Origin: Candidatus Polarisedimenticolaceae bacterium
Lineage (GTDB): Bacteria > Acidobacteriota > Polarisedimenticolia > Polarisedimenticolales > DASRJG01
Direction of reading: 5' to 3'
Assembly: GCA_036376135.1 (NCBI GenBank)
Contig: DASVAW010000139.1
Coordinates: forward strand, 1 to 33,737
Length of the DNA: 33,737 bases
In this document: piece after piece, positions 16,689-28,904 of the stretch
Layout: each line of letters starts with the position of its first letter
Position numbering within the stretch: position 1 is the stretch's first letter
Position numbers and translations under genes: made by a program
The notes under the pieces: model-generated
Told to the model about the DNA's origin: nothing
What the model saw: only the letters and a program-made list of their open reading frames with translations
Database searches by the model: none

Positions 16689-18743
16689 ATGACCATCACG
16701 TTCGATTCCGACACGCTCTCGAACTTCGAGGACGCGTCCCGCCGCGAGTGGATCGAGCCGAACGGGCTCGGCGGGTGGGCGTCTTCGTCCCTTTCCGGCG
16801 CGAACACGCGCCGATACCACGGTCTGCTGGTGGCCGCGACCCGTCCCCCCGTCGGCCGCATGGTGCTCCTCTCCAAGCTCGACGCGACGATCGTCCGCGA
16901 CGGCGAGCGTTTCGAGCTCGGCTCGAACCGCTGGCCGGGGGCGGTCTGGCCCGAAGGGCACAAGACCCTCCAGAGCTTCGAGCGCGACCTCTTCCCCGTC
17001 TTCGTCCACGAAGCCGGAGGCGTGCGCCTCCGGAAGACCGTCGCCGCGATCCACGGGGAGAACACCACCGTCGTCGTGTACGAGGTCCTGGAGGCGGCGG
17101 CGCCCTTCGTCCTCGAGCTCCGGCCGTTCGTGGCCGGGCGCGACCACCACGCGCTGGTGCACGCGAACCCGTTCGTCCGGGCCGAGGCGTCGTTCGAGGC
17201 GGGGGTGCTCGCGATGCGCCCCTACGACGGGGTGCCGGAGGTCTTCGTTTCCGCGGCCAGGGCGGAGTTCACGCCGGGCGCCGACTGGTACCGCAGCTTC
17301 GAATACGACTTCGAGCGGGAACGCGGCCTCGACTTTCGCGAGGACCTGTTCACCTACGGCGTCCTGCGCCGCGAGCTTCACGTCGGCGACCGTTTCGGCG
17401 TCGTGATCTCGACGGCGAACCCGGGCGGGCGCGACGCGTGGAAGCTCCTCGAGGCGGAACGCAAGCGCCGCAAGGAGCTGGTCGCGGCGGTCCCGGAGAA
17501 GGACGCGTTGCGCCGGGCGCTGATCCTCGCCGCCGACGGGTTCGTCGTGCGGCGCGGCGAGAGCCGCGCGTCGATCGTCGCCGGCTACCCGTGGTTTTCG
17601 GACTGGGGACGCGACGCGATGATCGCGCTTCCCGGTCTCACGCTCGCGACCGGCCGATTCGACGACGCGAGGAAGGTCCTGCTCGCCTTCCGCGACGCGC
17701 GGATGGACGGGTTGATCCCGAACCGGTTCGGAGAGCGGGCCGGCGAGGCCGAATACAACGCCGCCGACGCGACGTTGTGGATGTTCGTCGCCGTCCACGA
17801 GTACCTCAAGGCCACGGGGGACCTCGCGTTCGTGACGAAGGAGATGCTTCCCGCGCTTCGCGAGGTGATCGAGCATCACGAGCGCGGGACGCGCCACGGC
17901 ATCCGCGTCGACGCGCAGGGGCTCCTGTACGCGGGCGAGGCCGGCACGAACCTCACGTGGATGGACGCGAAGCTCGGCGACCACGTGTTCACCCCCCGCG
18001 TCGGTCGCGCCGTCGAGGTGAACGCCCTCTGGTGCAACGCCCTCGCGATCCTCTCCGACTTCGAGAAACAGGCCGGAAACGAGGCCGAGTCCGGGACCCT
18101 CGCGAGGAAGGCGAAGAAGGCCAAGGCCGCCTTCGTGAAGGTCTTCTGGAACGAGGAGGCGGGCTACCTGCTCGACGTGGACGACCACGTCCGGGAGGCC
18201 TCGATCCGCCCGAACGCGCTGATCGCGCTCTCGCTCCCCTTCGCGCTCCTCTCGAAGGAGCAGGCGAAGCGCCTGCTCGACGTCGTCGAGGAGAAGCTCC
18301 TCACCCCCGTCGGCCTGCGCTCGCTCGCCCCCGGGGATCCGGCCTACCGGCCGGTCTACCAGGGCGGGCCCGCCGAGCGCGACGCGGCCTATCACCAGGG
18401 GACGGTGTGGCTGTGGCTGCTCGGCCCCTACGTCAACGCGCTGCTGCGCACGCAGGGGGCCGCCGGGAAGGCCAAGGCGGCGAAGCTCTTCGACGCGCTT
18501 CCCGCGCACCTTGCCGAGGGTTGCGTCGGGCAACTCTCCGAGATCTTCGACGGCGAGCCGCCGCACGCCGCGCGCGGCTGTCCCGCGCAGGCGTGGAGCG
18601 TCGCCGAGGTCCTGCGCGCGTGGACCCTCGTCGAGTCGAGGCCGTCGGCGTCGAAGAAGAAGCCGTACCGGATCGTCCCGGTGAAGGCCGAGGGGAAGGC
18701 GAAGTCGAGGAAGAAGGCGAAGGGTCCCGAAGCGCAGCCCTGA
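16689..18743 (+). CDS. Amylo-alpha-1,6-glucosidase (glycogen debranching enzyme family)
   Basis: A 684-residue protein with a bacterial/archaeal debranching N-terminal domain (REWIEPNGLGGWASSSLSGANT at about 19-40) and an (alpha/alpha)6-barrel GDE_C-type catalytic domain. WFSDWGRDAMIALPGL (about 302-317) is the characteristic catalytic region, and MDGLIPNRF, YNAADATLWMF and HQGTVWLWLLGPYVNAL fit the same fold. The family cleaves alpha-1,6 branch points in glycogen-like glucans, usually in the cytoplasm; no signal peptide is seen. The ATG at 16689 lacks an obvious ribosome-binding site, although it starts the conserved domain well. The tail (~30 residues) is lysine-rich and low-complexity. Its TGA abuts the stop of the convergent kinase gene with no bases between. 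Confidence 0.9.
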   Translation: MTITFDSDTLSNFEDASRREWIEPNGLGGWASSSLSGANTRRYHGLLVAATRPPVGRMVLLSKLDATIVRDGERFELGSNRWPGAVWPEGHKTLQSFERDLFPVFVHEAGGVRLRKTVAAIHGENTTVVVYEVLEAAAPFVLELRPFVAGRDHHALVHANPFVRAEASFEAGVLAMRPYDGVPEVFVSAARAEFTPGADWYRSFEYDFERERGLDFREDLFTYGVLRRELHVGDRFGVVISTANPGGRDAWKLLEAERKRRKELVAAVPEKDALRRALILAADGFVVRRGESRASIVAGYPWFSDWGRDAMIALPGLTLATGRFDDARKVLLAFRDARMDGLIPNRFGERAGEAEYNAADATLWMFVAVHEYLKATGDLAFVTKEMLPALREVIEHHERGTRHGIRVDAQGLLYAGEAGTNLTWMDAKLGDHVFTPRVGRAVEVNALWCNALAILSDFEKQAGNEAESGTLARKAKKAKAAFVKVFWNEEAGYLLDVDDHVREASIRPNALIALSLPFALLSKEQAKRLLDVVEEKLLTPVGLRSLAPGDPAYRPVYQGGPAERDAAYHQGTVWLWLLGPYVNALLRTQGAAGKAKAAKLFDALPAHLAEGCVGQLSEIFDGEPPHAARGCPAQAWSVAEVLRAWTLVESRPSASKKKPYRIVPVKAEGKAKSRKKAKGPEAQP

Positions 18744-19958
18744 TCACACCGGGAGCCTTACCTTCGCGACGCACCCCGCGGTGTCCCGGCGATTCTCCAG
18801 GGCGAGGCTTCCGCCGTGCGCCTCCGCGATCTGCCTCGCGAGGACGAGGCCGATCCCGCTCCCGCCGGGCTTCGTCGTGAAGAACGGGACGAACAGGTTC
18901 GACGGATCGGCGAGCCCGGGGCCGTCGTCCTCGACGCGGACCTCGACGACGTTCCCCGAGAGCACCCACGCCAGCCGCACCGCGCCGCCGGTCTCGAGCG
19001 ACGCCTCGGCGGCGTTGCGGATCAGGTTGATCAGCATCGGGTCGAGCTGATCCCGGTCGCCGCGCAGGCGGACGTCGGGGCCCCCCGCGATCTCGATCGG
19101 CACGCGCCTCTCGAGCGAGGCTGCGTCGTGAATCCACGTCGCGACGGCGACGACGCCGGGGGACGGCTTCGGCAGGCGCGCGAGGCGGGTGTATCCCTCG
19201 AGGAATCGCGCCAGCGAGGCCGCGCGCTCCCTCACGACGGTCAGGCCCCGCTCGAGGTCCTCGCGCACGGCGGGATCGGGGTGCGGCGCGCGGCGCGCGC
19301 GGCTTTCGAGGCTCTCGGCGATCGAGCGGATCGGTCCCAAGGAGTTCCCCATCTCGTGCCCGAGGACGCGGATCAGGCGCAGCCACGCCGTTCGCTCCTC
19401 CTCGCGCAGGAGGTCGCCGAGGTTCGTCACGACGACGAGCCGCATGGGGCGACCGCGCTCGCGGAACGTCGTGCGTCGCACTCCGAAGCGCCCGGCGCCG
19501 CCGGGGAAGGCGCGGTCGATCGTCCCCGGGCCGTCGCGGAGCAGCGACTCCGCGCCGACCTCGGTCGCCGGCGAGCCGAGGAGCTGGAAGACCGGAATGG
19601 ACAGCAGGCGCTCCGCCGCGCGGTTGGCGAGGCGCACGCGCCCCTCGTCGTCGAAGGCGAGGACGGCCACGTCGATCTCCTCCATCACGGTGCGAAGGAG
19701 GGCCGTCGCCTCGAGCGCCTCGCGGCGTTGCGCCGCCATCGCGTCGGCCAGGAGGTTCGCCTCGACGAGGGCGTCGCCGAGGGGATCGCCCCGCCGCGCC
19801 TCGATCGCGCGGATCGAGAAGTCGTCCTCGCGCAGGGCCGAGAGGAGGTTGGCCAGCGTCTGGAGCCGGCGCATCTCGCGGCGCCGACGCCAGCGAAGCG
19901 CCGCGAGCGCGCCCAGGCCGCACGCGGCGGCGAGCGCGAGAAACGCCCCGGCGCTCAC
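18744..19958 (-). CDS. Sensor histidine kinase (PAS-HisKA-HATPase)
   Basis: A 404-residue kinase starting at a GTG that overlaps the response-regulator stop (GTGA). One membrane helix (about 4-22) is followed by a basic stretch, a PAS-like domain (VMEEIDVAVLAFDDEGRVRLANRAAERLL), the phospho-acceptor box VLGHEMGNSLGPI (His201), and ATP-binding motifs LINLIRNAAEAS (N box), VEDDGPGL (G1) and GSGIGLVLARQIAEAHGG (G2). The HEMGNSLGPI form is NtrB-like. It should phosphorylate the sigma-54 regulator encoded just upstream and so switch on the exporter operon. There is almost no extracytoplasmic loop, so the signal is probably sensed in the membrane or cytoplasm. Confidence 0.92.
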   Translation of the reverse strand: MSAGAFLALAAACGLGALAALRWRRRREMRRLQTLANLLSALREDDFSIRAIEARRGDPLGDALVEANLLADAMAAQRREALEATALLRTVMEEIDVAVLAFDDEGRVRLANRAAERLLSIPVFQLLGSPATEVGAESLLRDGPGTIDRAFPGGAGRFGVRRTTFRERGRPMRLVVVTNLGDLLREEERTAWLRLIRVLGHEMGNSLGPIRSIAESLESRARRAPHPDPAVREDLERGLTVVRERAASLARFLEGYTRLARLPKPSPGVVAVATWIHDAASLERRVPIEIAGGPDVRLRGDRDQLDPMLINLIRNAAEASLETGGAVRLAWVLSGNVVEVRVEDDGPGLADPSNLFVPFFTTKPGGSGIGLVLARQIAEAHGGSLALENRRDTAGCVAKVRLPV

Positions 19959-21316
19959 AGTCCGTGGCGCTGGAGACGCCGGTAGAGGGCGCTTCGGCTC
20001 AGTCCCAGCGCCTCGGCCGCCTTGCTGACGTTGCCGGCGTGGCGGTCGAGAGCCTTGCGGATCAGGACGCGCTCGACGTCCTCGAGGCTCATCGCCTCGA
20101 GCGCCGTCGGGGCCGCCGGCGCGGACGGGTGGGAAAGGCCGAGGTCGCCCGCGCGCACGAGCGGCCCTTTCGCCAGGAGCACCGCCCGCTCGATCCCGTG
20201 CTCGAGCTCGCGCACGTTTCCGGGCCACAGGTGCGCGACGAGGGCGTCGAGGGCCGCCGACTCGAACCCCTCCACGGGGCGGTGGTAACGCGACGCGTGG
20301 GTCTCGAGGAAATAGGCCGCGAGCAGGGGGATGTCCTCCGGACGCTCGCGCAGCGGCGGGACGCGGATCTCCACGGTGTTCAGCCGGTACAGCAGGTCGG
20401 GACGGAAACGTCCCGCCGCGGCCTCGGCGGCGAGGTCGGCGTTGGTGGCCGCGATCACGCGCACGTTCACGCGGTGCGACCGCGAGGAGCCGACCCGCTC
20501 GAACTCCCCGCTCTCGAGGACGCGCAGCAGCTTCGCCTGCATCGCGGGGGAGAGGTTGCCGATCTCGTCGAGGAAGAGGGTCCCTCCGTCCGCGAGCTCG
20601 AACCGGCCCACGCGGTCGGTCGACGCGTCGGTGAAGGCGCCGCGGACGTGCCCGAACAGCTCGCTCTCGAAGACCCCTTCGCTCAGCCCGCCGACGTTCA
20701 CGACGACCAGGGGACGCCCGGCGCGGGGGGAGGCGTCGTGCAGCGCGCGCGCCACCACCCCCTTCCCCGAGCCGTGCTCGCCGGTGATCAGGACCGCGGC
20801 CCCGGACGGGCCGACGCGTTCGATCCGCTCGAGGACGGGACGCATGGCGGACGAGCGCGCGAGCAGGCGCGGCGCCCCGTCCGAACGCAACACGCGCAGC
20901 TCGGCTTCGAGACGCTCGCCGCGGCGGAGCACCCGACCCAGCTCGACCTGCGTGCGCACGGTGGCGAGCAGCCGCGCGTTCTCCCAGGGTTTGGCGAGGA
21001 AGTCGCGCGCCCCCTTCCGCATCGCCTCGACCGCGAGGTCGACGGTCGCCCACGCGGTCATCACGACGATCGGCAGGGTCGCGTCGATCGCCCGGACGCG
21101 CGCGAGGAGGTCCAGCCCCTCGCGTCCCGACGTCGTGTCGCGGGCGTAGTTGAGGTCGAGCAGGAGCAGGTCGTGGTCGGAGGAGCCGATCGACTCGAGG
21201 ACCGCCGCGGGGGAGCCCGCGGGCACGACCTCGAATCCCTCCGGGCCCAGGAGCAGGCGCACCGCCTCGAAGACCTCCCTCCGATCGTCCGCGACCAGGA
21301 TCCGCGCCGGCTCCAT
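19955..21316 (-). CDS. Sigma-54-dependent response regulator (NtrC family)
   Basis: A 453-residue three-domain regulator. The receiver has acidic Asp10-Asp11, phospho-site Asp54, Thr87 and Lys109, with the unusual insertion LDLNYARDTTSGREGLDLL after Asp54. The AAA+ domain has Walker A GEHGSGKG (169-176) and Walker B GTLFLDEIGNL. The sigma-54 contact loop reads GAFTDA (226-231) instead of the usual GAFTGA. A Fis-type HTH (NVSKAAEALGLSRSALYRRLQRHG) ends the protein. It should activate the -24/-12 promoter upstream of the HlyD gene, in the same operon. The gap from the preceding permease stop is 32 bases. Regulators with this receiver insertion are commonly found beside MacB-type exporters. Confidence 0.93.
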   Translation of the reverse strand: MEPARILVADDRREVFEAVRLLLGPEGFEVVPAGSPAAVLESIGSSDHDLLLLDLNYARDTTSGREGLDLLARVRAIDATLPIVVMTAWATVDLAVEAMRKGARDFLAKPWENARLLATVRTQVELGRVLRRGERLEAELRVLRSDGAPRLLARSSAMRPVLERIERVGPSGAAVLITGEHGSGKGVVARALHDASPRAGRPLVVVNVGGLSEGVFESELFGHVRGAFTDASTDRVGRFELADGGTLFLDEIGNLSPAMQAKLLRVLESGEFERVGSSRSHRVNVRVIAATNADLAAEAAAGRFRPDLLYRLNTVEIRVPPLRERPEDIPLLAAYFLETHASRYHRPVEGFESAALDALVAHLWPGNVRELEHGIERAVLLAKGPLVRAGDLGLSHPSAPAAPTALEAMSLEDVERVLIRKALDRHAGNVSKAAEALGLSRSALYRRLQRHGL

Positions 21317-21348
21317 TCCGGGTAGTACGCAACCGAGGGGCGTTTCGT

Positions 21349-23766
21349 TCACGGCTCCCTGAGGGCGGCGGCGGGATCGATGCGGGAGGCGCGCCGGGCG
21401 GGGCGCCACGAGGCGGTCGCCGCGAGGAGCAGGATCGCCGTCCCGGACCCCGCGAGGGAGAGCGGATCGAGGCGCGAGACGCCGTGCAGCAGCGAGGCGA
21501 GGAGGCCGGATCCCGCGAAGGCGACCGCGAGCCCGATGGCGCTTCCGAGCGCGGCGAGCCCGACCCCCTCGCCCACGACCCCGAGGAAGACCCGTCGCTC
21601 GGGGGCCCCGAGGGCCATGCGGACGCCGATCTCCGCGGTCCGCTGCGCGATCGCGTGGCCGAGCACGCCGTAGACCCCGGCCGCCGCGAGCGCCGCCGCG
21701 AGGGAGGCGAAGGCGCCCAGGAGGACCGCGTGGAACCGCGGGCGGGCGAGGGCCCGATCCACGAGGGTCTCGAGGGTCGCCGGGAGGGAGACCGCCTGCT
21801 GCGGGTCGAGCGCGTAGACCGCCTCGCGGAACGCGCGATCGATCGCGGCGGGCGGAAGGCTCGTCCTCACGACGAAGTCCGAGCGGTACTGCCCCCCCTG
21901 CGAGATCGGGGCGTAGATGTCCGGGCGCCGCGCTCCCCACTCGCGGTAGCGGCCGTCGCGCACGACGCCGACCACCTCGCGCCACGGCTGCTTCGAATCG
22001 GGCGGGCCGAACTTCAGGCGTTTCCCCAGAGGGGAGGCCCCCGGCCAATAACGCTGCGCCACCGACTCGCCGACGATCACGACCGGAGCCGTGTCGGCGC
22101 GGTCCTCGTCGGTGAAGTCGCGTCCCTGGATCCGGGTCAGTGCGACCGTGTCGAAATACCCCGGGCTGACCGCGAGGTAGTTCGCGTAGGGGTTGCTCCG
22201 GAACGCCGCCTCGTCCTGCCCCTCGACGGTGTGGGGATAGTCCCACCCCACGGTGCCCGACAGCGGCCGCATCAGGACGGCCGCGGCGGCGTCGACACCC
22301 GGGATCGCGCGCACGCGTTCGACGAGCCTCGTGAAGAAGGCCGCCTGAGCGGCGCGGTCCGGGTAACGCGCGCGGACGAGTGCGACGCGCGCGGTCCAGA
22401 CGCCGCGCGGGCTCCAGCCCGGGTCGAGGCGCTCAAGAGCGAGCGCGGAGCGCACGAGCAGGACCGCCCCCGCCGCGAGGACGACCGCGAGCGCGACCTC
22501 GGAGACGACGAGCGCGCGCCTGGCGCGCACGCCGCGCGGGGTCGCAAGGACGCGGACGGCGGCCTCGCGGAGCACCGTCGCGGGCTGGGCCCGCAGCGCG
22601 CGCCAGGCGGGAATGGCGGCGGCGAGGAGCGCACACGCGAGACTCGCGGCGACGGCGAAGAGGACGACCCGGCCGCTCATCGTGACGTCGGCGACGCGGG
22701 GGAGGTCTTCCGGAGCGAAGGCCCGCAACGCGCGGACGCCGATCGCGGCGACCACGAGGCCGAGCGCGCCGCCGCCGAGAGCCACCAGAGCTCCCTCGGC
22801 GAGCGCGACCCGTGCGAGCCGCCGGGGCGGCGCGCCCAGCGCCAGGCGGATCGCGGTCTCCCGCCGGCGCCGGGCCGAAAGCCCCAGCAGCAGGTGGGTC
22901 ACGTTCGCGCAGGCGATGAGCACCACGGCGACCACGGCGCCCTGCAGCAGCGGCAGCGCCCGGCGGGCGCTCCCGAACACCGCGTCGAGCATCGGCACGA
23001 GCCGCACGCCGTACCCCCCGTTCTCCTTCGGCCAGGAGGCCGCGAGGGTCGCGGCGAGCCGGTCCATGCCGGCCCGCGCCGTCTCGAGGCTCACTCCGGG
23101 GGCCAGGCGCGCCACGGCGCGATAGACGCGGAAGGCGCGGGCGTTCGGGTCCGCGCGGTCGGAAGGGGGGAGCGCGGCCCAGAGCTCCGCGCCGTCGGGG
23201 AAGTCGAACCCCGGAGGGAGGACGCCCACGATCGTCGCGGGGTCCCCTTCCAGCGTGATCGCGCGCCCGACGATCCCGGGATCCGATCCGTAGCGCCGTT
23301 GCCAGAGTCCGTGGCCGATCACCACCACCGTCGGGGCGTCCAGGCGGTCGTCCCCTTCCCGGAGGGTTCGGCCGAGAGCGGCGCCGATCCCGAGCGTTTC
23401 GAAGAAGTCGGGGGTCACGACGTTGCCGGCGACCTGCGACGGTTCCCCCGAACCGGTCAGGGTGAAATCGAGGTTCACCGACGACATCAGCGCGATGGAG
23501 GAGAAGACGTCGTTCTGCTCGCGCCAGTCGGCGAAGTTCGACCAGGAGACCTCGACGAGCCCCTCCGGATCGCGCGCGTTCGATTCCCAGACGGTGACGA
23601 GGCGGGCGGCGTCCACGTACGGAAGCGGGCGCAGCAGGATGCCGTCCAGCGCGCCGAACGTCGCCGCAGCCGCCCCGATCGCCGCGGCGAGCGTCGCGAC
23701 CGCGATCGCCGTCGAGGAGGGTGCCGCGCCGAGGTTCCGGGCGGCGTCGCGGAGGTCCCGGGTCAA
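21349..23766 (-). CDS. ADOP-type ABC transporter permease (second of two)
   Basis: An 805-residue protein with two FtsX-type membrane modules and two MacB periplasmic core domains. It opens with RDLRDAARNLGAAPSSTAIAVATLAAAIG and has a mid-protein FtsX set (LLQGAVVAVVLIACANVTHLLLG, ETAIRLALGA). A second MacB_PCD follows (about 440-640), then the last FtsX domain (AEIGVRMALGAPERRVF) and the terminal SRIDPAAALREP. This is the architecture of Acidobacterial duplicated orphan permeases. The start is TTG at 23766: GGAG and GAGGGG lie just upstream, and the N-terminus fits the family exactly. It begins seven bases after the first permease stop, so a heteromeric pair with one ATPase is likely. The substrate is unknown. 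Confidence 0.92.
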   Translation of the reverse strand: MTRDLRDAARNLGAAPSSTAIAVATLAAAIGAAAATFGALDGILLRPLPYVDAARLVTVWESNARDPEGLVEVSWSNFADWREQNDVFSSIALMSSVNLDFTLTGSGEPSQVAGNVVTPDFFETLGIGAALGRTLREGDDRLDAPTVVVIGHGLWQRRYGSDPGIVGRAITLEGDPATIVGVLPPGFDFPDGAELWAALPPSDRADPNARAFRVYRAVARLAPGVSLETARAGMDRLAATLAASWPKENGGYGVRLVPMLDAVFGSARRALPLLQGAVVAVVLIACANVTHLLLGLSARRRRETAIRLALGAPPRRLARVALAEGALVALGGGALGLVVAAIGVRALRAFAPEDLPRVADVTMSGRVVLFAVAASLACALLAAAIPAWRALRAQPATVLREAAVRVLATPRGVRARRALVVSEVALAVVLAAGAVLLVRSALALERLDPGWSPRGVWTARVALVRARYPDRAAQAAFFTRLVERVRAIPGVDAAAAVLMRPLSGTVGWDYPHTVEGQDEAAFRSNPYANYLAVSPGYFDTVALTRIQGRDFTDEDRADTAPVVIVGESVAQRYWPGASPLGKRLKFGPPDSKQPWREVVGVVRDGRYREWGARRPDIYAPISQGGQYRSDFVVRTSLPPAAIDRAFREAVYALDPQQAVSLPATLETLVDRALARPRFHAVLLGAFASLAAALAAAGVYGVLGHAIAQRTAEIGVRMALGAPERRVFLGVVGEGVGLAALGSAIGLAVAFAGSGLLASLLHGVSRLDPLSLAGSGTAILLLAATASWRPARRASRIDPAAALREP

Positions 23767-23773
23767 CGGCCCC

Positions 23774-26239
23774 TCACTCCCACCGGAGCGCCTGCGCCGG
23801 GTCGATGCGGGAGGCGCGCCAGGCCGGGATCCAGCAGGCTCCCGCGCTCAGCGCGGAGACGACGAGCGCGACCATGCCGTAGGTCGCCGGGTCCTCGGGG
23901 CGCACGCCGTGGAGCAGGCTCGTGGTCAGGCGCGTCAGCGCGATCGAGCCCGCGAACCCGGCCGCGAGGCCGACCGCGCAGAGGACGAGCCCGCCGCCGA
24001 GGATCATGAGTCGCACGTCGAGGGGGCGGGCCCCCAGGGCCACGCGCACGCCGATCTCCCGCGTGCGACGCGCGACGGTGTACGCCGTCACGCCGTAGAT
24101 CCCGACGGCGGCGAGGGCGACCGCGATCGCGGAGAAGGCGGTCATCAGGCGGGCGATCAGCCGCGTGCGCTCGAGCGAACCGTCCACGATCTCCTCGAGG
24201 GTTCGCACGCGCGCCATCGGGAGGGTCGGGTCGATCTCGCGGAGCGCTTCGCGCGACGCCTTCACGAGCGACCGCGGGTCCGAGGACGTCCGCAGCGCCA
24301 CCGTCGTCTGCGTCGAGGCGAATCCCAGTCGCGCCGCCTGCGACTCGAGGAAGAAAACCTCGGTTCCCGCCGGCCGGTCGAGCCCGCCGTTGCGCACGTC
24401 CGGGACGATGCCGACGATCGTGGCCCACGGCGAGCCGTCCTCCGGACGCAGCCGGCCGCCCAGCGCGCTTTGCTCCCCCCAGAACCGCTTCGCGAGCGAC
24501 CGGTTGACGAGGCAGACGAACGGGGAGTCCGGCCCCTCGTCGGACGCGTCGAAGGGGCGTCCCTCCTCGACCTTGACCTTCAGGACGTCGAGAAGTTCCC
24601 GGCCCGACACCTGGTAGTAGTCCACGTTCTCGAAGGGGCCCTCCGGGGGGGCCGTGTACCCGTCGATGTCGGTGTCGTTGGCGAGGAGGGTTCTCACCGG
24701 CGGGGGATCGCTCATCGTCGCCGCGGAGGTCACGCCAGGAAGCGAGCGCAGGCGCTCCTCCAGGCGCGACCAGAAGGCGGCTCGGGCGGCGTTGTCGCGG
24801 TAGGTCGCTCCCGGCAGCTCGACCTCGAAGGTGAGCACGCCCGCCGCGTCGAACCCCGCGTCGGCGCGCTGCAGCTCGCGGAAGGTGCGGATCATCAGCC
24901 CCGCCCCGACGAGCAGCATCACGGTGAGCGCGATCTGGACCGCGACGAGGGCGCGGCGCGTGCGACGGCCCCGAAGCCCGCCCGCCGTGCGGGTTCCGCC
25001 CGATTGCAGGTCGCGTCCGAGGTCGAGGTCGCGAAGGGTCGCGAGCGGGGCGACCGAAAAGGCGCCGGCGGTGGCGATCGCCAGGAGCGTGGCGAAGACG
25101 AGCACGCGAGCGTCGATGCCGATCTCCGCGGCGCGCGGGAGCGCTTCGGGGAACGCCGCCATCAGTCCCTTCAGCGCGGCCCAGCCGCCGGCCGCGCCGA
25201 CGGCGGCTCCCGCGAGAGCCAGGACGAGCCCCTCGGCGAAGGCGCGCCGGGCGAGCGTCGCACGGGCGGCCCCGAGCGCGACCCGGATCGCCGTCTCGCG
25301 GCGCTTCGCCTCCCCGCGCGCGAGCAGGAGGTTCGCGACGTTGACGCAGGCGATCAGCAGGACGAACCCCACCGCCGCGAACAACGTCCACACGGCGGTG
25401 CGGGCTCCCCCGACCGCGTCCTCGTGCGCGGGGACGTAGAGCAGGAGGTGCTTCTCGCCGAACACGTGGTTCTTCTTGATCGCCTCGGCCCACAGCGGGA
25501 TCTGGCGCCGCTTCTCCGCCTCGGCGGCCTCGAGGGTCGCGCCGTCGCGCAGGCGTCCGAGGACGTGGAGGTAGTGGCTCCCGCGACGCTCGAGGGCCTC
25601 GGCGGTGCGCGAGAGGCCCAGCGGCAGCACGACGTCCGGCGCGGAGGAGGCGCCGAGCGGGAACACGAAGTCCGGCGGGAGCACCCCGACCACCTCGTTG
25701 GCGGTCCCCTGCACGAGGACCTTCGCCCCGACGATGTCCTTTCGCGCGCCGAACGCCCGCCGCCAGAGGGCGTCCGAGATCATCACGACCCGCGGGCCGT
25801 TGACGACGTCCTCCTCCTTCGTGAAGCCGCGCCCCGCGGCGGGGGTCACGCCCAGCGTGCGCAGCATCCCCTCGGTGAACTGGACGGCGCGCGCCCGCAG
25901 CGGCCCGTCGTCGCCGCCGACGTTGACGCCCCCTTCGGTGTACGCGGCGACCGACTCGAACGCCGGCAGGTCGCGCTCGACCTCGAAGAACTCCGGCGGG
26001 GACATCCAGAACTTCCTCAGCGAGAGGGCCGGGAACTCGGTGTAGATCCGGACGAGCTCCCCCGGCTCGGGGTAGGGGAGCGGCTGCAGGAGCATCCCGG
26101 AGACGACGCCGAACATCGCGGCGTTGGAGCCGATTCCCAGGGCGAGGGTTCCCGCGGCGAGGAGCGCGAACCCCGGCGACTTGGCGAGGGAGCGCGCGGC
26201 GAGGCGCAGGTCGTGCGCGAGCCCGGCGGCGGCGTTCAC
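23774..26239 (-). CDS. ADOP-type ABC transporter permease (first of two)
   Basis: An 821-residue permease with the same FtsX-MacB_PCD-FtsX-MacB_PCD-FtsX layout as its neighbour, but clearly diverged. HDLRLAARSLAKSPGFALLAAGTLALGIGSN opens the protein; VGFVLLIACVNVANLLLARGEAKRRETAIR marks the middle FtsX set and TREIGVRVALGARPLDVR the last, and it ends in SRIDPAQALRWE. Translation starts at GTG 26239, overlapping the ATPase stop (GTGA). The family is placed in export or membrane remodelling together with MacB-type ATPases; here the full partner set (HlyD, ATPase) is present, so the pair is not an orphan. Confidence 0.93.
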   Translation of the reverse strand: MNAAAGLAHDLRLAARSLAKSPGFALLAAGTLALGIGSNAAMFGVVSGMLLQPLPYPEPGELVRIYTEFPALSLRKFWMSPPEFFEVERDLPAFESVAAYTEGGVNVGGDDGPLRARAVQFTEGMLRTLGVTPAAGRGFTKEEDVVNGPRVVMISDALWRRAFGARKDIVGAKVLVQGTANEVVGVLPPDFVFPLGASSAPDVVLPLGLSRTAEALERRGSHYLHVLGRLRDGATLEAAEAEKRRQIPLWAEAIKKNHVFGEKHLLLYVPAHEDAVGGARTAVWTLFAAVGFVLLIACVNVANLLLARGEAKRRETAIRVALGAARATLARRAFAEGLVLALAGAAVGAAGGWAALKGLMAAFPEALPRAAEIGIDARVLVFATLLAIATAGAFSVAPLATLRDLDLGRDLQSGGTRTAGGLRGRRTRRALVAVQIALTVMLLVGAGLMIRTFRELQRADAGFDAAGVLTFEVELPGATYRDNAARAAFWSRLEERLRSLPGVTSAATMSDPPPVRTLLANDTDIDGYTAPPEGPFENVDYYQVSGRELLDVLKVKVEEGRPFDASDEGPDSPFVCLVNRSLAKRFWGEQSALGGRLRPEDGSPWATIVGIVPDVRNGGLDRPAGTEVFFLESQAARLGFASTQTTVALRTSSDPRSLVKASREALREIDPTLPMARVRTLEEIVDGSLERTRLIARLMTAFSAIAVALAAVGIYGVTAYTVARRTREIGVRVALGARPLDVRLMILGGGLVLCAVGLAAGFAGSIALTRLTTSLLHGVRPEDPATYGMVALVVSALSAGACWIPAWRASRIDPAQALRWE

Positions 26240-26940
26240 GACGCGAGCGTCCCGGGGACGTCGGAGAGGATCTTGCCGTCGAAGATGTGCACCGTCCGTC
26301 GCGCGTGGCGCGCGAACCTCACGTCGTGGGTGACCATGCAGATCGTCGCCCCCTGGCGGTGCAGCTCGTCGAGCAGCTCCATCACCGAGTCGCCGTTGTG
26401 GGAGTCGAGGTTCCCCGTCGGCTCGTCGGCGAGCAGGATCAGGGGGGACCCGACGAGCGCGCGCGCGACCGCGACGCGCTGCTGCTGGCCGCCGGAGAGC
26501 TGCGACGGGTAGTGCTTCTGCCGGTGCGCCATCCCCACGCGCTCGAGCGCCTCGCCGACCGCCTTGCGCCGGTCGGCCGCGGGCATGTCGCGATAGGTGA
26601 GCGGGAGCTCGACGTTCTCGAAGACCGTGAGGTCCCCGATGAGGTTGAACGACTGGAAGATGAACCCGATCTCGCGGTTGCGGATCCGCGCGCGCTCGGC
26701 GGGAGAGAGCTCCTGCACCGGCCGCCCGTTGAGCCAGTAGGCCCCCGCGCTCGGAGTGTCGAGCAGGCCCAGGATCGACAGCAGCGTCGACTTCCCGCAC
26801 CCCGACGGTCCCGCGATGGACAGGTAGTCCCCCTTGTGGACGTCGAGGTGGATCCCCGACAACGCATGCGTCTCGACCTCGTCGGTCAGGAAGACCTTGG
26901 TGAGCTCCTCGAGGCGGATCAGGGGGGTCTCGGCGTTCAT
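26236..26940 (-). CDS. ABC transporter ATP-binding protein (MacB/LolD type)
   Basis: A 234-residue ATPase with Walker A GPSGCGKST, the FIFQSFNLIGDLTVFENVELPL Q-loop segment typical of MacB/LolD, signature LSGGQQQR, Walker B LLADEPTGNLD and the switch MTHD. It powers the two ADOP permeases encoded directly downstream, with which it overlaps, and probably works with the HlyD adaptor whose stop lies ten bases upstream. Such type VII-like exporters move substrates from the periplasm or inner membrane outward and do not transport across the inner membrane. Confidence 0.95.
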   Translation of the reverse strand: MNAETPLIRLEELTKVFLTDEVETHALSGIHLDVHKGDYLSIAGPSGCGKSTLLSILGLLDTPSAGAYWLNGRPVQELSPAERARIRNREIGFIFQSFNLIGDLTVFENVELPLTYRDMPAADRRKAVGEALERVGMAHRQKHYPSQLSGGQQQRVAVARALVGSPLILLADEPTGNLDSHNGDSVMELLDELHRQGATICMVTHDVRFARHARRTVHIFDGKILSDVPGTLAS

Positions 26941-26950
26941 GGGGCCTCCT

Positions 26951-28198
26951 TCAATCGATGCGGATGCGGTCGAAGCCGTCCCAGCCGGCGGTGTCCGAGA
27001 GGATCACGCGGTCGCCGGCGGAGAGTCCCGAGACGATCTCGATCTCGCGCGCCGACGCGCGTCCGAGCTCGACGGGGACGCGGACGGCCTCGCGGCCGTC
27101 GGGGTCGAGGCGGAAGACTCCGGCGCGCGAGCCGGGCTGGCCGAACGCGGGTCGCCCGACGTGCAGCACGTCGGGAAGGGTCTCGATCGTGATCGTGCCG
27201 TCCACGGAGAGATCGGGGCGCGCTCCCTTCGGAAGCGCTCCGTCGAGCGTGACGTCCACGCGCACCGTGCCGTCCACGACCGCGGGGTCGATCCGGCTCA
27301 CGCGACCCTCGACGATCCCGACGCGGGTGTCGATCGACGCGCTCATCCCGATCGCGATGTCCTTGGCCTGGGTCTCGGGGACGCGAAGCTCCGCCTTGAG
27401 CCGATCGGGGCGGGCGACCTTCGCGAGCACCGTCCCCGCGGCGAGCGCCTGGCCGGGCTCGACCGGGATCTGCTGGAGCACGCCGTCGATGCCGGCGCGC
27501 ACGCGCAGCGCGTCGGCCTCCTCGCGGCGCAGCGCCGCCGCGGCGCGCAGCTGGTCGAGGCGCACGTCGATCGCCCGCTCGCGCGCGCGAAGCGCCGCCT
27601 CGGCGGTCGAGAGGCGCTCCTGCTCGAGCGAGCGGCGGGTGTCGAGCTCCTCGACGCGCACCCGGGAGGTCTGGAGGACGAGCCCCGAGACGAGGCCGTC
27701 CTTGGCGAGCTCCTCGTTCGCGGCGGCCTCGAGCCGCGCCTGCTTCCAGTCGGCCTCGACGGCGGCGGCGGTGGCGCGCCGATCGAGCCACCCGTTCTTC
27801 AGCTCGACCTTCCCGCTCGACGCGTCGGCTTCCGCCGCGGCGACCTCGAGGGCGGCGTCGCGCGCGGCCGCCTCGACGTCCGGGTCCGACAGCTCGAGGA
27901 GGACGGTATCGGGGGCGACGACCGCCCCCGCCTGAACGACGACCCGCTCGACGCGGGCCGAGGACCGTGCGGTGATCCAGCGCACGTCCTCGGGGACGAG
28001 CGTCCCCGGCGCGCGCACGTCGCGGACCATCTCCCCGCGCTCGACGGTGCCGACGTAGACGGCGTCGCGACGGACGGTCGGGGGGGCGGGCTCGAGCCTC
28101 GACACGCCGAACGCGAGCGCGGCGATCGCGAGGACGCCCCCTGCGGCGTAGGCGAGACGCCGGGGGCGGCGATTCGGGGGGGTGCGGGGGACGTCCAT
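26951..28198 (-). CDS. HlyD/MacA-type periplasmic adaptor (membrane fusion) protein
   Basis: A 415-residue adaptor. A single N-terminal membrane helix (about 15-33) is followed by a lipoyl/beta-barrel half (ARVERVVVQAGAVVAPDTVLLELSDPDVE), a long coiled-coil hairpin (about 120-245, rich in Ala, Glu and Arg), the second lipoyl half (GIDGVLQQIPVEPGQALAAGTVLAKVA), a beta-barrel domain and a C-terminal membrane-proximal domain (LSAGDRVILSD). The ATG at 28198 lies only three bases from the predicted sigma-54 start site, so the message may be nearly leaderless; a TTG at 28216 was considered but would precede that start. It is the first gene of the exporter/two-component operon. Confidence 0.92.
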   Translation of the reverse strand: MDVPRTPPNRRPRRLAYAAGGVLAIAALAFGVSRLEPAPPTVRRDAVYVGTVERGEMVRDVRAPGTLVPEDVRWITARSSARVERVVVQAGAVVAPDTVLLELSDPDVEAAARDAALEVAAAEADASSGKVELKNGWLDRRATAAAVEADWKQARLEAAANEELAKDGLVSGLVLQTSRVRVEELDTRRSLEQERLSTAEAALRARERAIDVRLDQLRAAAALRREEADALRVRAGIDGVLQQIPVEPGQALAAGTVLAKVARPDRLKAELRVPETQAKDIAIGMSASIDTRVGIVEGRVSRIDPAVVDGTVRVDVTLDGALPKGARPDLSVDGTITIETLPDVLHVGRPAFGQPGSRAGVFRLDPDGREAVRVPVELGRASAREIEIVSGLSAGDRVILSDTAGWDGFDRIRID

Positions 28199-28212
28199 CG
28201 CCCGGGCACAAC

Positions 28213-28226
28213 GCAACGGACGTGCC
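28213..28226 (-). promoter_or_regulatory. Sigma-54 (-24/-12) promoter of the HlyD-ABC-two-component operon
   Basis: On the minus strand the bases read GGCACGTCCGTTGC. The GG (28225-28226) and GC (28213-28214) are exactly ten bases apart, and GGCACG-N4-TTGC matches the sigma-54 consensus over both elements; the flanking bases (G for T before, G for A/T after) are the only mismatches. Transcription should start near 28201. It heads an operon that encodes its own sigma-54 activator, which makes the match more believable than by sequence alone. Confidence 0.8.
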
Positions 28227-28240
28227 CGCGTTCCATCCCT

Positions 28241-28280
28241 CCGGCGAACCGCTCGCGGCGGCGGTGCGACCGTTCGCCGG
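28241..28280. promoter_or_regulatory. Inverted repeat upstream of the sigma-54 promoter
   Basis: CCGGCGAAC at 28241-28249 and GTTCGCCGG at 28272-28280 are 9-bp reverse complements separated by 22 bases. It lies about 40-80 bases before the predicted start site and may be an activator or IHF-linked element. Confidence 0.4.
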
Positions 28281-28295
28281 AAGCGGTGTCCGCTT
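28281..28295. promoter_or_regulatory. Candidate enhancer site for the sigma-54 regulator (dyad AAGCGG-TGT-CCGCTT)
   Basis: A perfect 6-bp inverted repeat with a 3-base centre, 80-95 bases before the predicted sigma-54 start. That is the classic place for an NtrC-type upstream activating sequence. The regulator's Fis-type HTH would be the reader. Binding is inferred from position and symmetry. Confidence 0.45.
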
Positions 28296-28297
28296 CT

Positions 28298-28313
28298 GGG
28301 ACGGCGCCGTCCC
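28298..28313. promoter_or_regulatory. Perfect 16-base palindrome GGGACGGCGCCGTCCC
   Basis: It lies two bases beyond the previous dyad and about 97-113 bases before the predicted start, so it could be a second activator site. It is also nine bases after the stop of the co-directional gene at 28322 and could be a terminator stem, though no T-run follows. Confidence 0.4.
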
Positions 28314-28321
28314 GCAATCGG

Positions 28322-28870
28322 TCAGTGCAACAGGATCCCGGGGCCCGCCACGAGGTCTCCCGTCACGTCGCAAGCCTCGGGATGACCTCGCGCGACGAGC
28401 GACTCGGGGGGAACCCGGCGCCGTCCGCGGGCCGCGTCGTCCATCTCTGCGGCGACGCTCTGTTCGATCTCCAGCGCGAATCGCTCCCCGGCGGTTCCCG
28501 CGCGCTCGTCGCGGCTCCCCTGGAAGATGCGGATCAGGTGCGCGAGCTCGTGCGCCAGCACGGCGACCCTGCGCCCCTTGAGCCCGCGTTGCGGGACGCC
28601 GATCCGCGCGCGCAGCCAGGCGATGCAGGAGGCATCGCGGGGATGGGCGGGAGTCCAGACCTCGACCCGGGATCGGACGCGGGCGCGGGAGTCGCCCGAC
28701 GCGGCCACGAGCGTCAGCTGCGCGGCGCGGGTCGCTTCCAGCGCCTCCCACGTCTTCCGGAACGTCGGGGAGTCGCGAAGCCCCGCCTCGACGAGTTGCG
28801 CGAGTTGGGGCGGCGTGCCCACGAGGAACTCCGCGGCGAGCGCAAGGCCGGCAACCCCCGAGAGGAACAT
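28322..28870 (-). CDS. Small exported HExxH metallopeptidase-like protein
   Basis: A 182-residue protein. Residues 1-18 look like a signal peptide or membrane anchor. The motif LAHELAHL places His107, Glu108 and His111 in an HExxH zinc-peptidase arrangement, and Glu residues in FALEIEQSVAAEMDD about 25-30 residues later could give the third ligand. The family is not recognised; the remainder is helical and Arg-rich, and length is small for a secreted protease. It might be a shortened or non-peptidase relative. It is separated from the neighbours by ~100-base gaps on both sides and is probably its own unit. There is no clear ribosome-binding site. Confidence 0.65.
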   Translation of the reverse strand: MFLSGVAGLALAAEFLVGTPPQLAQLVEAGLRDSPTFRKTWEALEATRAAQLTLVAASGDSRARVRSRVEVWTPAHPRDASCIAWLRARIGVPQRGLKGRRVAVLAHELAHLIRIFQGSRDERAGTAGERFALEIEQSVAAEMDDAARGRRRVPPESLVARGHPEACDVTGDLVAGPGILLH

Positions 28871-28904
28871 GCCCGACTCGTACGCTCGGGGGGATCGTCG
28901 CGTG

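Follow-up and report, generated by a model that had tools for sequence, protein, structure and literature searches.

Predicted sigma-54 promoters are reported to be enriched before genes of COG0577 in Gammaproteobacteria, Opitutia and Bacteroidia, and of COG1136 in Opitutia (PMC12316311, 2025). The sections of that paper at hand present this as the first evidence tying sigma-54 to the MacB-type ABC (antimicrobial peptide exporter) family, and mention that ZraR is able to regulate its own operon; the terms acidobacteri* and leaderless are absent from its main text. Those systems resemble ours in having sigma-54 promoters before ABC-type antimicrobial peptide exporter genes, but they were found by COG enrichment, and in the same sections enhancer, regulator and leader length are not described. 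The portions at hand of TSS papers on leaderless messages and sigma-54 (PMC3616915, PMC5243855, PMC9723704, PMC12403871) do not join the two subjects.

As for the genes, the regulator of our locus shares the Receiver-AAA+-Fis layout and a partner kinase with ZraSR, AtoSC and NtrC-type systems, while scoring far below the NCBIfam equivalog cut-offs (AtoC, 366 of 714; ZraR, 363 of 760). Both permeases pass the ADOP model and the adaptor passes RND_mfp, as in ADOP/MacAB-type exporters. The ATPase resembles DarD, LolD and MacB alike, and the genes stay below the DarB, DarC, DarD, MacB, MacA and LolD cut-offs. Here the ADOP permeases are accompanied by an ATPase, an adaptor and the two genes of a sigma-54 two-component system. 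As a type of switch this is nothing unusual; what is new is the conserved enhancer described here and a start that is often predicted to be almost leaderless. To our knowledge, no control has been described for the ADOP exporters of these uncultured bacteria.

The window, meaning the whole 33,737-nucleotide stretch analysed, comes from a Candidatus Polarisedimenticolaceae genome of 4.38 Mb in 179 contigs. We consider it likely that an ABC exporter operon, ending in its own two-component pair, is turned on from a sigma-54 promoter that has a dedicated enhancer. This reading is drawn from sequence, namely the letters of the promoter, the conserved box and enhancer, the order of the genes, rpoN and the domains encoded. 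The features are as follows.

28287 to 28313, minus strand: enhancer-like element (UAS) GGGACGGCGCCGTCCCAGAAGCGGACA, at -112 to -86 (dyad scan, conservation)
28213 to 28226, minus strand: -24/-12 sigma-54 promoter GGCACG-N4-TTGC (letters, and conservation before orthologous operons)
28201, minus strand: predicted transcription start (distance from the -12 GC)
26951 to 28198, minus strand: HlyD/RND-type periplasmic adaptor, first gene of the operon (TIGR01730 above cut-off)
26236 to 26940, minus strand: MacB/LolD-type ABC ATPase (profile matches)
23774 to 26230, start approximate, minus strand: ADOP family permease 1 (TIGR03434, 833.2 bits against a cut-off of 622.3)
21349 to 23766, minus strand: ADOP family permease 2 (TIGR03434, 823.6 bits against 622.3)
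19955 to 21316, minus strand: NtrC-family response regulator, presumed activator (receiver, AAA+ with GAFTDA loop, Fis-type HTH)
18744 to 19958, minus strand: histidine kinase (PAS and HATPase_c domains), its start overlapping the regulator stop

The genes are tightly packed, with intergenic distances of 10, about 5, 7 and 32 nt and one 4-nt overlap. The HlyD start is taken as the ATG at 28198-28196 because the N-terminus MD[VI]xR is common to the orthologs. The regulator carries the Pfam domains Response_reg, Sigma54_activat and HTH_8 and is thus of NtrC type, with a loop that reads GAFTDA, as in every ortholog aligned there, where the class criterion has GAFTGA. One copy of rpoN is present in the genome (PF04552, E 2.8e-62, with the DNA-binding domain matched nearly end to end), where the sigma-54 activator domain is matched 30 times, in 22 cases at more than 200 bits. 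The preliminary description had proposed an ADOP-type exporter ending in an NtrC-family regulator and its kinase, and had named absence of rpoN as refuting; the permease scores, the domains of both last genes and the rpoN copy all agree with it.

Two observations concern the surroundings. The gene upstream (28322-28870, minus strand) encodes 182 aa with no Pfam or NCBIfam match, and its AHELAH is an HExxH motif, zinc-peptidase-like. Furthermore, the number of permeases varies widely, since in relatives (L073, L087, L099, L135, L259, L260 and others) the adaptor-ATPase pair precedes differing counts of MacB/ADOP permeases; a second ATPase, about 41-48% identical, is often present in such loci.

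On the minus strand the promoter region reads GGGCACGTCCGTTGCGTTGTGCCCGGGCGATG, the full element being GGCACG-TCCG-TTGC, with GGCACG at 28226-28221 and TTGC at 28216-28213. GG (28226-28225) and GC (28214-28213) are separated by a spacer of 10. Compared with TGGCACG-N4-TTGC there is a single mismatch, G instead of T at -26. Sigma-54 transcripts start 12 nt after the C of the GC, which would place +1 at 28201, just before the HlyD ATG at 28198; location and letters are exactly those first described.

Conservation was assessed on adaptor matches in Acidobacteriota, Verrucomicrobiota and Gammaproteobacteria. The best 80 of 570 confirmed relatives gave 68 non-redundant loci, and further adaptor orthologs were taken from class and phylum relatives. 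A box was required to have at least 9 of 11 consensus letters and an exact GG-N10-GC within 200 nt of the start; box and dyad counts were compared with first-order Markov resampling, which is not an exact shuffle. Among these best relatives, 39 of the 68 loci have the box, against a Markov mean of 1.16 and a maximum of 5 in 200 runs, and the opposite strand gives 2 of 68. A perfect 11/11 box is found in 7 of 68 loci and in none of the Markov runs. Among class and phylum relatives, leaving the window out, 11 of the 18 loci inspected have at least 9 of 11 letters. No 9/11 box was found in the other 29 of the 68 loci, including most Chthoniobacterales, where regulator genes lie directly upstream. 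The sigma-54 promoter first proposed from the letters is supported by this recurrence before orthologous operons, by rpoN and by a conserved element farther upstream.

This element, the UAS, was missed in the preliminary description and is an addition to it. We scanned the DNA upstream of the box for dyads with no prior motif, using all 4-base half-sites and spacers of 0-12. TCCC-N6-GGGA was found in 13 of 40 site-bearing loci (0.20 expected) and GGGA-N8-TCCC also in 13 of 40, window included (0.27 expected), while across 30 shuffles no dyad was counted more than 8 times. Applied to 30 box-free loci, the same scan gave no dyad above 4. In the UAS, a perfect 16-bp palindrome (28313-28298) precedes a half-site, and the enhancer position is nearly constant across loci, at about -95 to -140. 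Examples are GTCCCATTCGTGGGACGGCACCTTCCCA in L101, GTCCCACAAGCGGACA in the class relatives L047 and L060, and GTCCCACAAGCGGACAC in L114 (Acidobacteria gp6), where it lies some 16 nt farther up (TCCC at -117 against -100). GTCCCA-N4-CGGACA is kept in the class relatives L045, L047 and L060, with near variants in others. Three of the eight gammaproteobacterial loci (L106, L132, L141) have no exact dyad.

In terms of shorter motifs, GTCCCANNAGCGGACA without mismatch occurs at a single place in the window, the UAS. With at most one mismatch, TCCCANNNGCG is present in 29 of 39 box-bearing loci, counting redundant loci and dropping L130, whose upstream DNA is only 52 nt so that the scan ran into the gene; the expected 5.82 includes L130. 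It is also found in 12 of 40 loci below the box threshold (4.5 expected), and several of these, having 8/11 boxes, are probably true. A longer enhancer motif has one perfect match in the genome, the UAS, and 9 matches with one mismatch, the perfect match being partly by construction as the motif was drawn from relatives and window together. At up to two mismatches there are 216 genomic matches against 162 for the reversed control. A genome-wide regulon was sought with this motif and not found, the UAS being its only perfect match.

The Opitutia (L101, L113, L117, L121, L122, L136, L139, L142, L146) show a near-fixed array, TCCC-N6-GGGA-N8-TCCC, which begins at -139 to -136; regulator and kinase form a separate upstream unit there where they are present in the DNA examined.

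Across 37 loci the linked regulator shows 58-67% identity. Its GAFTDA loop is kept wherever aligned, and the recognition helix LGLSRSA[LFM]YRR is nearly invariant, the exception being L124, where the match is partial. This fits one regulator family that would read one enhancer. No regulator gene was found in the flanks examined of the eight gammaproteobacterial loci.

We then turn to the leader. In the window the GC-to-ATG distance is 14 nt, which predicts a leader of 3 nt. Across the 39 box-bearing loci this distance runs from 11 to 60 with a median of 22, and is 30 or less in 36. All eight gammaproteobacterial loci (record titles Dokdonella, Lysobacterales, Lysobacteraceae and Gammaproteobacteria) have 11-13 nt, with predicted leaders of 0-2 nt, so a Shine-Dalgarno leader cannot fit; L087, L103, L151, L133, L140, L135 and L139 have 14-17. 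The nearest class relatives keep about 50 nt from box to ATG (50-52 in L043, L044, L046, L047 and L060), the values of L048, L049 and L051 (70, 59, 72) being off by several codons through misplaced start codons. Given 14 nt in the window and about 50 in the nearest relatives, the short form would have evolved repeatedly, or else have been lost along some of the lines between. The almost leaderless message first suggested therefore stands as a prediction and recurs in some distant orthologs, but is not shared by the nearest relatives.

It is close to an even call, slightly under it, that the box is real while the start or processing lies elsewhere, or another start codon is used, so that the message is not almost leaderless and the closeness is a side effect of a compact genome. 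The nearest class relatives, with the same start, speak for this, as do the distances of other sites. Among order relatives, ATG-near sites at 11-16 nt number 10 of 51 where a uniform spread predicts 9.9, and in the eight gammaproteobacterial genomes the HlyD sites account for 8 of the 17 found at 11-13 nt, the remainder showing no excess (9 of 108 non-HlyD sites, about 11 expected). On the other side stand the eight gammaproteobacterial orthologs, all at 11-13 nt, and the genome of the window, where four of the seven stringent sites (GGCACGNNNNTTGC), including that of HlyD, lie 13-16 nt before an ATG. This last excess is weak (P 0.03 against uniform; 6 of 14, P 0.04, with the four copies of one insertion-sequence-like gene collapsed).

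The idea that leaderless sigma-54 messages are the norm in the lineage was rejected on the order-level and gammaproteobacterial counts just given and on stringent sites of relatives. In 30 of about 150 listed loci with such sites, candidate starts are mostly at 20-90 nt and several are preceded by AGGAGG-like letters. The eight gammaproteobacterial genomes have 116 ATG-near sites against 35 in the reversed control. That a promoter abutting the start codon wires this three-phylum exporter switch for leaderless or nearly leaderless translation, coupling tight silence under activator control to a message with no need of a Shine-Dalgarno leader, is an idea we hold to be rather unlikely.

The preliminary description also proposed positive autoregulation. 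The regulator-kinase pair lies only 32 nt past permease 2 on the same strand, and for this reason is probably co-transcribed with the exporter in the window genome, which makes autoregulation plausible. In relatives the pair is often a separate unit, and autoregulation is not conserved. A sigma-54 promoter is silent without its activator and cannot be the activator's sole source, so a second, basal promoter for the pair must exist.

It is possible, though we lean against it, that the pair has its own promoter in or after the permease genes, the sigma-54 promoter serving the exporter only, with no positive feedback. In Verrucomicrobiota the pair is its own unit upstream, and in L261, L264 and L270 gaps of 71-216 nt separate it from the open frames before it, both of which agree with a separate promoter. 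The regions upstream of the relatives' regulators mostly have neither sigma-54 box nor enhancer; an autoregulatory box there was looked for and in general not found, the exceptions being L109 and L120 with 9/11 boxes, and L120 and L126 with a dyad. The 32-nt gap in the window argues against a separate promoter, as does a consensus scan of 18600-28900 that found no sigma-70-like or terminator-like site, a weak test in 72% GC DNA.

Finally, taken on their own, the promoter letters do not exceed chance. At up to one mismatch, TGGCACGNNNNTTGC has one match in the window, at the promoter, against a mean of 0.38 in shuffles, and at least one match occurs in 34 of 100 shuffled windows; the stringent GGCACGNNNNTTGC gives 7 matches in the genome, fewer than the 11 of its reversed control. 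The letters thus prove nothing by themselves. The position of the site, unlike its letters, is beyond chance, in its proximity to an ATG and its conservation before orthologous operons. Besides that of HlyD, the stringent sites at 13-16 nt precede a STAS-domain gene (Pfam match near cut-off) directly after an activator gene, a receiver-domain gene directly after a different activator gene, and a gene for a lipoprotein-like product that matches NosL. That the box is a chance GG-N10-GC match in GC-rich DNA, devoid of function, would agree with the lack of excess by letters but is highly improbable given the joint conservation of box and enhancer upstream of orthologous operons in three phyla; it was this conservation, and not letter statistics, that led us to reject chance alone.

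Other repeats and sites were seen in passing. CGGGCAC/GTGCCCG (28228-28222 and 28209-28203) is a 7-bp inverted repeat spanning the -24 box to just before the start; it was judged a chance feature and was not seen in the orthologs inspected. Between enhancer and promoter lies a perfect 10-bp inverted repeat, TCCGGCGAAC/GTTCGCCGGA (28281-28272 and 28249-28240), with no T run, which may terminate the upstream gene's transcript or introduce a bend in the DNA. In the same genome, four insertion-sequence-like gene copies (L182, L185, L187, L193, on C14, C45, C65 and C137) each carry GGCACG-N5-TGC exactly 13 nt upstream of the ATG, an arrangement that weakly resembles a sigma-54 site; their protein begins MRWPI..VEKQRRFVPRFCPR and its sole domain match is a sub-threshold HTH_38. 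Within 20 kb of one gammaproteobacterial genome (G067:C11:698225-717634) there are six ATG-near sites with sigma-54-like letters, listed in seven rows, perhaps a cluster of co-regulated genes.

Returning to the sigma-54 switch with its own enhancer, its working would be as follows. On a presumed signal, the histidine kinase would phosphorylate the NtrC-type regulator, whose dimers would occupy the GGGAC/GTCCC half-sites that lie about 86-112 bp before the start. With its AAA+ domain the regulator would then drive the sigma-54 RNA polymerase poised at GGCACG-N4-TTGC into the open state. The message would begin about 3 nt before the HlyD ATG, leaving almost no leader for the translation of HlyD, and the exporter would act on its putative substrate. 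The transcript probably runs on into the regulator and kinase and would raise their level, atop a basal promoter not yet seen.

For these uncultured bacteria, a lone promoter call becomes a complete, testable unit of kinase, regulator, enhancer, promoter and exporter, and the enhancer motif offers others a means to find the regulon. If the leaderless layout is true, it would link sigma-54 control to leaderless translation, two subjects unjoined in the parts of the literature searched. Under that less likely reading, a leaderless message could allow the exporter to be made under impaired translation initiation, such as that caused by an antibiotic which is itself exported.
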